IMG/VR virus record: IMGVR_UViG_3300031823_000010
Coordinates: 1 to 48,203 of that record
Source: a virus
Length of the DNA: 48,203 nucleotides
Reading direction: 5' to 3' (one strand)
The notes below the pieces were generated by a model that saw only the letters and a program-made list of their open reading frames with translations, made no database searches and was not told the DNA's origin. Positions 32,830 through 48,203 of this stretch are shown here, piece after piece; position 1 is the first letter of the stretch; each line of letters opens with the position of its first letter. A program made the translations under genes and the position numbers.

Positions 32830-33131
32830 ACGCTATCACTCAACAGCTACTCAGTGTTGCATGTCCGCATTGCGGTGCGGGAGTCGGTAAAGTATGCTCG
32901 CAGACTGGCACGTTCGGTTCAGCTAATCTCTATTTTCATCCCGCACGTTGGCGAGCTCGCCCACCGAGCAAGGTCATCCATCTCGGCTATTCCAAACAGC
33001 ACAACTACGATCTCGGTGTGACGCCGTCGACGAAATGCGCTCACGGCACTCATGCGCCACGGTGCAGCGGCAAGCTCGCGCCAGCGCATGGCATAACGCC
33101 GAAGTGCAGTTGTCAATGTCATCATCACTGA
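32826..33131 (+). CDS. Phage-type zinc-binding protein
   Basis: The 101-residue protein starts at ATG 32826 inside the previous stop. Its N-terminal CPHCGAGVGKVC plus FHPARW is the short phage zinc-finger type C-x2-C-x(n)-C-x(n)-H-x2-R. The C-terminus is a second Cys/His cluster (CAHGTHAPRC and KCSCQCHHH). It ends seven bases inside the convergent small-terminase candidate. Nucleic acid binding is likely. Confidence 0.65.
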   Translation: MNAITQQLLSVACPHCGAGVGKVCSQTGTFGSANLYFHPARWRARPPSKVIHLGYSKQHNYDLGVTPSTKCAHGTHAPRCSGKLAPAHGITPKCSCQCHHH

Positions 33132-33643
33132 ATCATGGGCTCATCGCGCACGCGATCAAGCTCGGCGAATAACTCAGCCTCGCTCATCTCAGCGAAGCGA
33201 TCGCGTTGCGGTGCGGGTTGGATGTTCTCGGTCGACGCGCCGAGTGCCAGGCGGTCGCAGCGATACAACTCGATGAACGCCGAGACTGCCTTCACCGCGT
33301 CGCTAGTCGTGAGGTTGGGCCGGATAGTGATGACGCCTTTTGCGTCACGAATCTTGAGCGTCGAGTCGACGATATAGCGCATCTCTTCGTTTCGCTTTAG
33401 CTGCTTCTCATCGATCTCGCGTATCCGCGCCACCGCGTCTTTGCCCACAGCCATCGCGGTTATTTCCTGTGCGTAACGCTGTGCGGAGGCGACTCGCGCC
33501 GTGTTCCAATGCCCCTTCATCGCTTGCGCCCGCACGGTGTCGTAGCGGATGTTGTATTTCTCGGCAAGCTGCTTTTGCGTCATGCGTGGGTGCTGAATGT
33601 ACTCGATCTTCAGCTTCTCCCAATCTGCAAGGGGCGGCGGCAT
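33125..33643 (-). CDS. HTH protein, candidate terminase small subunit
   Basis: The N-terminus of this 172-residue protein is a helix-turn-helix (MTQKQLAEKYNIRYDTVRAQ, then AMKGHWNTARV), common in small terminase subunits, followed by long helices (about 50-125) and a Pro/Gln/Asp linker. Small terminases bind the packaging site and regulate the large subunit. The opposite strand and the distance from the large subunit make the call tentative; a general DNA-binding regulator is the alternative. It ends convergent with, and seven bases into, the plus-strand operon. Confidence 0.5.
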   Translation of the reverse strand: MPPPLADWEKLKIEYIQHPRMTQKQLAEKYNIRYDTVRAQAMKGHWNTARVASAQRYAQEITAMAVGKDAVARIREIDEKQLKRNEEMRYIVDSTLKIRDAKGVITIRPNLTTSDAVKAVSAFIELYRCDRLALGASTENIQPAPQRDRFAEMSEAELFAELDRVRDEPMIQ

Positions 33644-33652
33644 ATACGCGAA

Positions 33653-33985
33653 CTATACCCCCGCTCGACTTTTGAGCGCAAACATCTCGTCATCACCGGG
33701 GACCTGGTGAAGATGGAAACAATAGTCGTGAAGGTTGACGTATTCCTCTCGCGGCGGGAGAAACATCGCGACCGTGACGTCGTTGGGGATGAAGCGATAG
33801 CGTGCTTCTCTGATCTCGTCCCACGTCGGATAGCGGTGCGGCGTCGAGATCGAGAGATGCCATCCGATGGTGGGTTCCTGGCCGACAAACACGGTGACGA
33901 TACCCCATCGCCAGGCACGGCAGAAGCGCATAGGCGAATGAACCTCTTTCCAGTTGGGCTTGGGGCGAATCAGGGCGACCGTCAT
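33653..33985 (-). CDS. DUF7694-type phage protein
   Basis: The 110-residue protein starts at ATG 33985, overlapping the upstream zinc-ribbon gene. GWHLSISTPHRYPTWDEIRE, RYRFIPNDVTVAMFLPPREE and YVNLHDYCFHLHQV fit the DUF7694 pattern found in many phages. Function is unknown. The many His, Tyr and Trp residues might form a binding pocket. Confidence 0.7.
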   Translation of the reverse strand: MTVALIRPKPNWKEVHSPMRFCRAWRWGIVTVFVGQEPTIGWHLSISTPHRYPTWDEIREARYRFIPNDVTVAMFLPPREEYVNLHDYCFHLHQVPGDDEMFALKSRAGV

Positions 33986-34816: not shown

Positions 34817-35290
34817 TTAGCTCCGACAATGCGGACAACGCCGCGCCCAGCGTTCGCCGTCGATGATGGTGACGAGGTAGCGTCGGCCTTCGCAAGCCTC
34901 ACACCATTGCGGACAGATCAGCGTGCCCGCGGCCTTCTGGTTTTTCCAGGCTGTCCACGCGATCGCCATTGCCGGGTAAGCTTCACAGATTTGCTGGCTG
35001 GTGCGGTTGTAGTACTTGACCTGATCGGCGAGATAGTCGTCGAACATTTTGCATTCTTTGTAACGAGTCAGCGACCAGGTATGAGACTCATCGCGAATGG
35101 TCTGAGCGGCGGCGCGGCATTCATCGAGCAATCGACCGAGATTTGGGAAGTCACGCTCGCGGCCTTGCGGTTCGGTGATCTCGATATTGTGGCAAGCGCG
35201 TTCGATGATGGGTTCGGAGAAGCCACCGATCGCGGAAGCGAACGCCTCAAGATCTTCGGGTATCTGGCTCCGTCTCAGGTTCGCCATCAT
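34817..35290 (-). CDS. Putative helicase-loader-like replication protein with zinc end
   Basis: The 157-residue protein starts at one of two adjacent ATGs (35290 or 35287), overlapping the initiator gene by 44 bp. The N-terminal half is helical (IPEDLEAFASAIGGFSEPII); the C-terminus has CPQWCEAC and CPHC, a zinc-binding set. Its place directly behind an initiator recalls the lambda O-P order, so a loader role is inferred; no P or DnaC motif is visible. It could also be an unrelated zinc protein. Confidence 0.4.
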   Translation of the reverse strand: MMANLRRSQIPEDLEAFASAIGGFSEPIIERACHNIEITEPQGRERDFPNLGRLLDECRAAAQTIRDESHTWSLTRYKECKMFDDYLADQVKYYNRTSQQICEAYPAMAIAWTAWKNQKAAGTLICPQWCEACEGRRYLVTIIDGERWARRCPHCRS

Positions 35291-36425
35291 CTTCAGGCGA
35301 GTCAATATCCATGCGTTTGAGCGCCGCTTGGAAGAGTCGTTCGTTGCGTTGGTCGAGCGTTTCGTAGCCACTGGCATGAGACTTACCTCCGTTGGGTTTT
35401 ACCCAGGTCAGGCGTTTCTCAAATTCCTCTGCAGAACGGAAGATCTGGTCGTTCCAATCGACATGGCCGTTGGTGATGTGCCACTCGCTGGCGGCCAGGT
35501 TTTTTATGGCGGTGTTGATATCGTCGACCGCGAGCGCCAGCGAGCCCCGGATTTTGGTGCGCTCGTGGAGGCGTAGCAGCGCCTTGGCTTTGCGGATGGG
35601 GGTCAGGGTGTACTTCGTACGATCGCGGTGCAGCTCATCGCAGTAGAAGTTGAACAGGGCCTCGATGATCTGGCCGTCGCGAATCTTCGGGTCCTCGGGT
35701 TGGCGCTCTTCCGGTTTTTCGACCTCGTCGGAGACAACCTCGTTTTCACTCACGCCCGGCGAAGTCGCAGACTGAGCCTGAGTCGACCGTGGTCGACGAG
35801 AGTTTTTAAAAAGCTTTTGTTCTTGTACTGAAGAAGAAGTACTTGAAGTACTAGAAGAAGAAGGGGGGGTGTACAAAAGCGTTACATCATCAACCTCGGT
35901 GCGCGTTACATCAGCGTTACAAGCAGTGTCGGCGGGCGTTACATTTGCGTTACGGGGCTGCGTTACATTTGCGTTACTTTTAAAGCTCGCGTCTGGGTCG
36001 GTTTCAGTCTTATGTCTTTCCCTGAATTCATTTACCCGATTTCGGACGCCGGTGCGAATGGCTTCATCGCGCACCATTCGGCGCGAGTAAATGACGCCGG
36101 ATGACGTCTTCGAGTACACGCCAGCCCGTTCCAACTCGCGCAATAATTCCTCGATTTGCGCCGGTTGATGGGGGCATTTATGGCCGTTTCCTCGCGGTCT
36201 ACTACCACATCTCCTGCACTCCTCCTCGCCTCCTACTAGGCTGCTTACTTCGGCCCTACTATGGGGTGAACCGTCAGGATGTTCGAGAAATCCGCGCCGC
36301 GGTGACTCCCACATCAGGCAGATCATGTCCATCCAGAGTCCGCGTGCTGCACGAGTGACAGAGCGCAGCGCGGGGTCCTTCATCCAGTCGCCGATGTAAA
36401 ACGGAAACGATGGAATCTTACTCAT
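35247..36425 (-). CDS. Replication initiator with DUF1376-like N-terminus
   Basis: The 392-residue protein starts at ATG 36425 with AAGGTG about nine bases upstream. FPFYIGDWMKDPALRSVTRA then ARGLWMDMICLMWES is the DUF1376/YdaU winged-helix start typical of phage replication proteins. A cluster CRRCGSRPRGNGHKC follows. The middle (about 150-260) is low complexity, rich in Asn, Thr and Ser, and is encoded by the iterons. The C-terminus is helical (ALLRLHERTKIRGSLALAVD). As with lambda O, it probably binds the repeats inside its own gene. Confidence 0.75.
   Translation of the reverse strand: MSKIPSFPFYIGDWMKDPALRSVTRAARGLWMDMICLMWESPRRGFLEHPDGSPHSRAEVSSLVGGEEECRRCGSRPRGNGHKCPHQPAQIEELLRELERAGVYSKTSSGVIYSRRMVRDEAIRTGVRNRVNEFRERHKTETDPDASFKSNANVTQPRNANVTPADTACNADVTRTEVDDVTLLYTPPSSSSTSSTSSSVQEQKLFKNSRRPRSTQAQSATSPGVSENEVVSDEVEKPEERQPEDPKIRDGQIIEALFNFYCDELHRDRTKYTLTPIRKAKALLRLHERTKIRGSLALAVDDINTAIKNLAASEWHITNGHVDWNDQIFRSAEEFEKRLTWVKPNGGKSHASGYETLDQRNERLFQAALKRMDIDSPEDDGEPETEPDTRRS
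35801..35878. other. AT- and purine-rich stretch beside iterons (candidate unwinding region)
   Basis: Next to the iterons the plus strand changes to AGTTTTTAAAAAGCTTTTGT followed by GAAGAAGAAG-type purine runs. It also includes the 15-bp palindrome AGTACTTGAAGTACT (35838-35852). In lambda, an AT-rich asymmetric tract lies beside the O-binding iterons and unwinds first. The analogy is positional only. Confidence 0.5.
35879..35977. repeat. Seven GCGTTAC iterons (probable origin of replication)
   Basis: GCGTTAC occurs at 35879, 35903, 35914, 35936, 35947, 35960 and 35971, always in the same direction. Most copies continue as GCGTTACAT or GCGTTACATTT. Start-to-start distances are 24, 11, 22, 11, 13 and 11 bp, close to whole helical turns. 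They lie in the centre of the initiator gene, where they encode Asn-Ala-Asn-Val-Thr-like text. The density and phasing are strong signs of an initiator-binding array. Confidence 0.8.
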
Positions 36426-36510
36426 AGCTAAATCACCTTCTTTCACCAGTTGCCGAAGAGCCGAGAATGTCCGCACACGCATCGCAACAGCATCAGGCCC
36501 TTGCCCACGT

Positions 36511-40186: not shown

Positions 40187-40837
40187 CTAGATCATGCGTT
40201 CCCAACGCGCCACGACCGTACCGAGAATTGAGATCGCTTGGTCGGTCGAACGGATGACGGGGAAATAGTTATTCAAGGTGATCAATTCGAAGGGTCGCTT
40301 GCCCTGACCATTTTCAAGAGCGCGATAGATTCGCACGATCGCGTCCTCTGTATTCTTGACTCGCGCAGCGACGAATTGACCGGGCTGCGGAATAACCCCG
40401 GCGTCGACGACGACAATATCGTGCTGGTTGAGTTTAGGTTCCATCGCTTTGTCGTAGACATTCATCGCGAAGGCTTTTTTGGAAACCTCAAAATATACAG
40501 TGATCGAGTCCGGCCACTGCTCTGTAATTGTTTGCAGACCTGCCACTTTAGAGTTGACCATGGGAATTCTGTAGCCTCGCAAGTTCTGTGGCAAAGCAGA
40601 CTGGTCGGAGAGGTCCTTATAACGAAGAGCTTCAACAGTAACGCCAAAGTGTTTTGCCAGCAGATGAAGTGTTGCATCTCGGGGGGTGATATTTTTTCCG
40701 GTCAGGATTCGGTGGATAGTCGGCTGTTTTACGCCAGCAGCTTTCGCTAATGCGTTCTGACTGATGCGTGCCTGACGCAGCAGCCAACGTAAGTTTGCCG
40801 CTACCGTGATCACACTAAAATCGTTCTTATCGCCCAT
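40187..40837 (-). CDS. CI-like repressor, XRE HTH plus S24 fold lacking the catalytic dyad
   Basis: The 216-residue protein has an N-terminal HTH (ISQNALAKAAGVKQPTIHRI, about 25-44) and a C-terminal LexA/CI-type domain. The place of the catalytic serine (usual SMxP) reads KAMEP, so Ala131 replaces Ser. The place of the catalytic lysine reads IVRIY, so Arg169 replaces Lys. An Ala-Gly pair (99-100, KVAGLQ) stands where cleavage normally occurs. It is transcribed divergently from the Cro-like gene and should maintain lysogeny, probably without RecA-driven self-cleavage. Confidence 0.85.
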   Translation of the reverse strand: MGDKNDFSVITVAANLRWLLRQARISQNALAKAAGVKQPTIHRILTGKNITPRDATLHLLAKHFGVTVEALRYKDLSDQSALPQNLRGYRIPMVNSKVAGLQTITEQWPDSITVYFEVSKKAFAMNVYDKAMEPKLNQHDIVVVDAGVIPQPGQFVAARVKNTEDAIVRIYRALENGQGKRPFELITLNNYFPVIRSTDQAISILGTVVARWERMI

Positions 40838-47927: not shown

Positions 47928-48125
47928 TTAGAACCGCTCGCATACGGCGCGAACGTCTGCGGGAAGCGGCGCACTATTCGGATAACGCGATGCCATCTCC
48001 GCGTACAAAGGTTTGAGCTGTTCGCTTGCGTCGATCCACAACGGACTATCCGGTCGATTGGTTTTCTGAACGTTCAGCAACGACTCAATCCTCAAAACGA
48101 TTTCCATATCTGTGTCGATCTGCAT
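47928..48125 (-). CDS. First early gene, unknown small protein
   Basis: The 65-residue protein starts at ATG 48125 behind GAGGTAAACGGAA. It reads MEIVLRIESLLNVQKTNRPD and LKPLYAEMASRYPNSAPLPA. It is the first gene behind the palindromic early promoter. Its 5' end lies inside the terminal repeat, so its first codons appear twice in the contig. Family unknown. Confidence 0.65.
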   Translation of the reverse strand: MQIDTDMEIVLRIESLLNVQKTNRPDSPLWIDASEQLKPLYAEMASRYPNSAPLPADVRAVCERF

Positions 48126-48203
48126 TTCCGTTTACCTCGCAATCACTTACTGTCACTATAGTACCAAAATGGTACTATAGTGTCAATGGGGGCCTTCCAC
48201 TTT
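48077..48203. repeat. Terminal direct repeat, right copy
   Basis: Identical to bases 1-127. In this copy the promoter is in its natural context, about 25-35 bp upstream of the first early gene. Confidence 0.93.
48154..48186 (-). promoter_or_regulatory. Early leftward promoter overlapped by a 29-bp palindrome
   Basis: On the minus strand TTGACA (48181-48186), a 17-bp spacer and TACTAT (48158-48163) with an upstream TG make a near-consensus sigma70 promoter. The 12-bp perfect inverted repeat (48154-48165 and 48171-48182) around a 5-bp centre covers the spacer, the -10 and part of the -35, so a bound dimer would block it. It should drive the genes from 48125 down to 45011. Confidence 0.78.

Follow-up and report, generated by a model that had tools for sequence, protein, structure and literature searches.

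Phased direct repeats within a viral replication initiator gene: a candidate intragenic iteron origin with possible counterparts in other phages

The window analyzed here is the whole 48,203-bp stretch of the virus record IMGVR_UViG_3300031823_000010. It carries an exact 127-bp direct terminal repeat (1-127 and 48077-48203), so that the genome is probably complete, and the record probably represents a complete circular or circularly permuted genome. A putative replication initiator gene is preceded by genes coding for a RusA resolvase and exonuclease-like proteins, by a gene of an unknown PHROG family and by the gene of a CI-type repressor, a neighbourhood that looks like the early region of a temperate phage. 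The features of the locus are the following:

35247..36482, − strand: putative replication initiator ORF of 411 codons (PHROG 13246; annotated relatives)
36003..36395, − strand: predicted winged-helix DNA-binding domain, residues 11-141 of the shorter form (AlphaFold2)
35971..35977, − strand: iteron 1, GTAACGC, frame x-N-A, doublet 1
35960..35966, − strand: iteron 2, GTAACGC, frame V-T, doublet 1
35947..35953, − strand: iteron 3, GTAACGC, frame x-N-A, doublet 2
35936..35942, − strand: iteron 4, GTAACGC, frame V-T, doublet 2
35914..35920, − strand: iteron 5, GTAACGC, frame x-N-A, doublet 3
35903..35909, − strand: iteron 6, GTAACGC, frame V-T, doublet 3
35879..35885, − strand: iteron 7, GTAACGC, frame V-T, single
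35682..35966, − strand: predicted disordered linker, residues 154-248 (pLDDT <50), whose coding sequence holds most of the iterons and the melting tract
35863..35869, no strand assigned: C7/G7 run between iterons and melting tract (in relatives, CCCC at the same place, before a Ser tract)
35829..35862, no strand assigned: triplet tract, mostly purine on the + strand (GAAGAAGAAG...), encoding Ser/Thr
35803..35852, no strand assigned: candidate DNA unwinding element, 72% A+T
34817..35377, − strand: next gene, possible start at 35287, in the position of a helicase loader in relatives

The initiator likely starts at the ATG at 36425 (MSKIPSFPFYIGDW..., with AGAAGG upstream), which gives a protein of about 391 amino acids. 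PHROG 13246, named "replisome organizer," matches it weakly (E = 2e-4), its C-terminal part has a weak match to a PHROG named "replication initiation O-like" (E = 0.033), and relatives of its domain are annotated as replication proteins. No Pfam family matched the whole protein at E = 0.001, and none matched either of its two halves at E = 5, DUF1376 (PF07120) and Phage_rep_org_N (PF09681) included; the label DUF1376-like given to this protein in a preliminary description of the locus is therefore withdrawn. Among named phages, a protein search returned no close relative, the best reaching 35% identity. In an AlphaFold2 model built with 50 relatives, the pLDDT of the winged-helix domain exceeds 90 over most of its length and is lower around residues 66-90, and the C-terminal helices are of low confidence. 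The domain and the linker, as modelled, are counted among the features that can be read from the sequence. The best structural matches are the N-terminal domains of plasmid RepA proteins (4pql, 5kbj, 4pt7, and 4pta, of which 5kbj is a Rep-DNA complex), with modest Z scores of 7.3-7.9, and the best Foldseek E-value is 0.14. The likeness to the RepA_N plasmid initiators (pTZ2162, pSK41), whose winged-helix N-terminal domain binds iterons, is one of fold only and modest; unlike the repeats of the window, their iterons are partly palindromic (PMC7145576), and membership of RepA_N is not claimed on Z scores of this size. The winged-helix domain also contains a zinc-knuckle-like Cys/His insertion, CRRCGSRPRGNGHKCPHQ, at 36165-36218 (residues 89-106 of 411), which is missing from seven aligned relatives. 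The product of the next gene matched no Pfam or PHROG family, nor any recognizable loader family, and its counterpart is annotated as DnaC-like or P in several named relatives.

Seven exact copies of GCGTTAC lie on the + strand at 35879, 35903, 35914, 35936, 35947, 35960, and 35971, within 99 bp (35879-35977), as the preliminary description had stated; they occupy codons 169-202 of the 411 in the ORF at 35247-36482 (− strand), in keeping with the mid-gene position that it gave them. Read on the coding (−) strand, GTAACGC has its 5′ ends at 35977, 35966, 35953, 35942, 35920, 35909, and 35885, with spacings of 11, 13, 11, 22, 11, and 24 bp, a layout of three GTAACGC-N4-GTAACGC doublets and one single copy. 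A spacing near multiples of 11 bp had also been proposed; this holds for the distances of 11, 11, 11, and 22 bp and fails for those of 13 and 24 bp, which depart from the 11-bp grid. The other seven copies of GTAACGC or GCGTTAC in the 48 kb are isolated, scattered singles. The total of 14 compares with a chance mean of 5.6 and was reached in 0 of 100 shuffles, and, barring words that overlap the GTAACGC array, no other 7-mer of the window occurs more than four times within 110 bp.

The initiator gene reads the repeated letters in two frames: four copies give V-T and three give x-N-A, and TAA would occur in the third frame. Synonymous recoding of the same protein with the codon usage of the phage yielded 0-6 copies in 100,000 trials and never reached seven, and the joint probability of the repeat letters given the amino acids corresponds to a log10 P of about −8.2. 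The protein does not explain seven copies in two frames. The repeats, their phasing, their two-frame coding and their improbability given the protein are all read directly from the letters.

Beyond the array, the coding strand runs through C7, then TTC triplets, then AGCTTTTTAAAAACT. The preliminary description had noted an AT- and purine-rich tract adjoining the iterons, and this was upheld: the 50 bp from 35803, which include TTTTTAAAAAG at 35803-35813, have the second lowest duplex stability of all 50-bp sites in the 48 kb, and purine triplets occupy the + strand at 35829-35862. The lowest stability in the window is found near 40813, where the CI-like repressor gene has its 5′ end. The weak duplex, too, is a direct property of the sequence. 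The purine triplets resemble, in shape only, the DnaA-trio element of bacterial origins. Cumulative GC-skew, which had been suggested as a check, has its circular minimum at 33,697, 2.2 kb away, with a small amplitude that is too weak to place an origin.

Recurrence of the array was sought in two ways. On the one hand, viral contigs were scanned for three phased copies of GTAACGC, which gave at least 120 stretches, the raw counts for GTAACGC being lower bounds. Among the 120 stretches listed, 57 fall in replication-initiator-like ORFs (a few of these being self-matches to reference members), and 93 are mixed-frame. With the control words CAGCGTA and AGCATCG, which are scrambles of GTAACGC of the same composition, 0 of 31 and 1 of 54 stretches lay in initiator-like ORFs, and most CAGCGTA stretches were in-frame protein repeats. 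Part of the GTAACGC matches are likewise in-frame 12-bp protein repeats, so that frame mixing and initiator relatedness, not raw counts, were used. Among the host genomes that bear arrays in initiator-like ORFs are Desulfosarcina, Pantoea, Rhodopila, a Verrucomicrobia bin, an Oscillospiraceae bin, Pelotomaculum, and Psychrobacter. Comparison of ten array-bearing representatives with Pfam and PHROGs gave matches that include Phage_rep_org_N, DUF1376 and several PHROG families, named replication initiation protein, replisome organizer, primosomal protein, and DnaD-like loader; the array-bearing relative L272 matches DUF1376, and the match of relative L030 to Phage_rep_org_N (E = 9e-4) falls under the curated cut-off. 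A search with PHROG 2509 across 185 genomes gave one match. The reversed iteron CGCAATG was rejected as a neutral control, since it too falls in initiator genes, which by eye look DUF1376-like and DUF4373-like. Phased at 10-12 bp, CGCAATG lies in phage initiator genes in 35 of the 120 stretches listed (L324-L443). Both GTAACG and GCAATG fit GYAAYG and could represent two classes of iteron within a single scheme.

On the other hand, relatives were reached through the protein, by a profile scan with the motif ARGLWIDILC that returned 80 loci. In the subfamily marked by SRRMVKDE..GRKSNRDRV, array positions are fixed, at 22 and 11 bp apart after a more variable first copy; of its 15 genes, 13 were reached through the protein alone, and L030 and L039 through the repeat scan. 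The core is GTAACG, GTAATG, GTAACC, or GTCACG depending on the gene (GAAACG in one further relative), and the amino acids shift to suit the core type (V-T, V-M, E-T). In 14 of the 15 subfamily genes, all three cores of the gene have the same letters, against a mean of 2.2 and a maximum of 10 after shuffling, and L030 and L533 each contain one extra repeat unit inserted at exactly 12 bp. Since the repeat letters change together in all copies, with the amino acids following, selection acts on the repeats as DNA. Synonymous loss of the repeats under a constant protein had been named as evidence that would speak against an origin, and the opposite was seen, the repeats being fixed in place while the amino acids vary. 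Recurrence and concerted change in relatives are again plain in the sequences themselves. Several others of the 80 loci carry different phased repeats at the same place, e.g., AAGGTTAACC or TAAGCAAA every 11-12 bp, and many relatives have other repeats, or none detectable by exact-word search. A TCT/TCA serine tract, typically after CCCC, is found at the place of the opening tract in about half of the distinct genes among the 80 loci. Its Ser codons are TCT or TCA in 98% of cases vs. 55% elsewhere in the same genes (L504-L583), which suggests that the opening tract is also selected as DNA, although many of these genes are close kin. Covariation between domain residues and iteron type was sought in few sequences, and its strongest column lies inside the array itself.

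The simplest account of these observations, and a very probable one, is that 35801-35977 is an iteron origin inside the gene of the initiator that acts on it; we infer from the sequence that the initiator binds there, that the strands open, that a helicase is loaded and that the phage has no other origin. The winged-helix domain of the initiator would bind the seven direct GTAACGC iterons, which, with roughly one or two helical turns between most of them, would present largely one face of the DNA. The assembled array would strain the DNA, such that the weak A+T and purine-triplet tract at 35803-35862 melts, and a DnaB-type helicase would then be brought to the opened strand, either by the initiator through its C-terminal part or by the product of the next gene. 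The preliminary description had offered the same reading of the locus as an intragenic iteron origin, and frame alternation, improbability given the protein, the weak duplex, and recurrence in initiator genes all speak for it.

Comparable arrangements have been described in several phages. In lambda, the iterons lie in the middle of the initiator gene, and after them comes a 40-bp A+T tract that has nearly all purines on a single strand (PMC5043065, PMC7466680). The order of initiator domain, iterons and strand-asymmetric A+T tract is the same here as in the O/ori region of lambda and the Stx phages, and the earlier proposal of a lambda-like design, with iterons in the initiator gene and then such a tract, agrees with the published layout (PMC5043065). 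However, the lambda iterons are inverted repeats of about 19 bp bound by O dimers, whereas those of the window are non-palindromic direct repeats of 7 bp, and the window protein has no match to the lambda O family. In SPP1, the direct repeats of oriL that gp38 binds lie inside gene 38 and adjoin an A+T-rich unwinding element (PMC6316719); the likeness concerns direct repeats in the gene of the initiator, or replisome organizer, and the A+T-rich element, and SPP1 differs in having an additional, distant oriR. Similarly, the organizers of TP901-1 (ORF13, Rep) and Tuc2009 (Rep2009) bind repeats within their own genes that were demonstrated to be the origin (PMC8965321), an arrangement that the window shares, and the TP901-1 rep gene contains no short exact repeats of the GTAACGC type. 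In-gene direct repeats, an adjacent A+T-rich element, and an initiator gene with a modelled DNA-binding domain are the features shared with intragenic origins of the SPP1 and TP901-1 type. The intragenic iteron origin is an established kind. The window would hold a new case of it, one that falls outside lambda O and Pfam DUF1376 and has a short direct iteron of its own.

The repeats could instead be an operator through which the initiator or another regulator only represses or times its own gene, with replication starting elsewhere. Phased direct repeats within a gene could serve autoregulation, and sequence alone cannot separate binding from origin function; yet the array sits deep within the coding sequence, next to the site that ranks second lowest in duplex stability in the genome, many phages have it at the same place in their initiator genes, and the intragenic arrays of this kind that were studied experimentally are origins (PMC6316719, PMC8965321, PMC5043065), all of which makes an operator improbable. 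A site for packaging start, partition, or recombination that merely happens to lie within the initiator gene is a still more improbable explanation: a terminase-small-like gene (33125-33643) and recombination genes are found nearby, and phased repeats can serve such sites, but across families the arrays track replication initiator genes, not terminase or recombinase genes. Least probable of all, and already contradicted, is the view that the repeats simply reflect a repetitive protein linker (N-A-x-V-T motifs) and play no part as DNA, since, although the array encodes a low-complexity disordered linker (pLDDT <50) and a peptide that appears repetitive, the gene reads these seven bases in two frames, recoding with synonymous codons fails to yield seven copies, and relatives alter the amino acids (V-T to V-M) while keeping one word in all copies, in contrast with the scrambled word CAGCGTA, which mostly matches in-frame protein repeats.

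Beyond the reading of the locus as an intragenic origin, a wider proposal, which we advance tentatively and hold to be somewhat doubtful, is that a single origin code, GTAACGC and its close variants (GTAATG, GTAACC, GTCACG, perhaps GCAATG), may be common to many phage winged-helix initiator families in several bacterial phyla. Such a code would be written in, or just after, the coding sequence of the DNA-binding domain and be followed, in the subfamily, by a C-run and a pyrimidine-triplet opening tract, the initiator and its iterons co-evolving by concerted change. The open-access literature searched, whose coverage is incomplete, yielded no description of a GTAACGC array, no iterons linked with DUF1376 or Phage_rep_org_N, and no account of one iteron word across many initiator families with letters changing in concert. 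To our knowledge, most temperate phages have no mapped origin. Should the pattern hold, the origin, the repeat word and the opening tract could be located from the initiator gene alone, uncultured viruses included, and, if the code reading is true, origins and binding code could be read directly from the initiator genes of uncultured phages. The interest lies in how widely the iteron is shared, and the parallel change of all repeats in a gene amounts to a natural experiment on the co-evolution of an initiator and its binding site within the same DNA.

Named phages chosen by protein extend these observations. All seven members of the WLKFE family that were chosen (Xanthomonas phages CP2 and Olaya, E. 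coli phage TL-2011b, the Rac prophage of strain 442/2, a Klebsiella phage, and Pseudomonas phages VW-6S and PAN70) have GTAACG at gene nucleotide 148 and one or more further copies at 343-367, and inverted CGTTAC copies are also present in the seven initiators. In the WLKFE-type genes L585, L587, L589, L593, and L595, two GTAACG clusters lie about 200 bp apart, each with an inverted CGTTAC, and one of the clusters is inside the winged-helix coding region. GTCACG is repeated at 10, 11, or 21 bp in Aeromonas pAEv1818, Pseudomonas phita81A, and E. coli Tritos; in one Vibrio and one Microcystis phage record, also chosen by protein, neither a GTAACG nor a GTCACG array was found. In E. coli K-12, the linker of Rac ydaU (L475:4472-4570) contains repeats of the TGTTCA/TGTTCAA type with spacings of 33, 33, and 12 bp. 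The three TGTTCA copies in YdaU that lie 33 bp apart are all in one frame, and the TGTTCAA-type repeats are possible iterons of oriJ.
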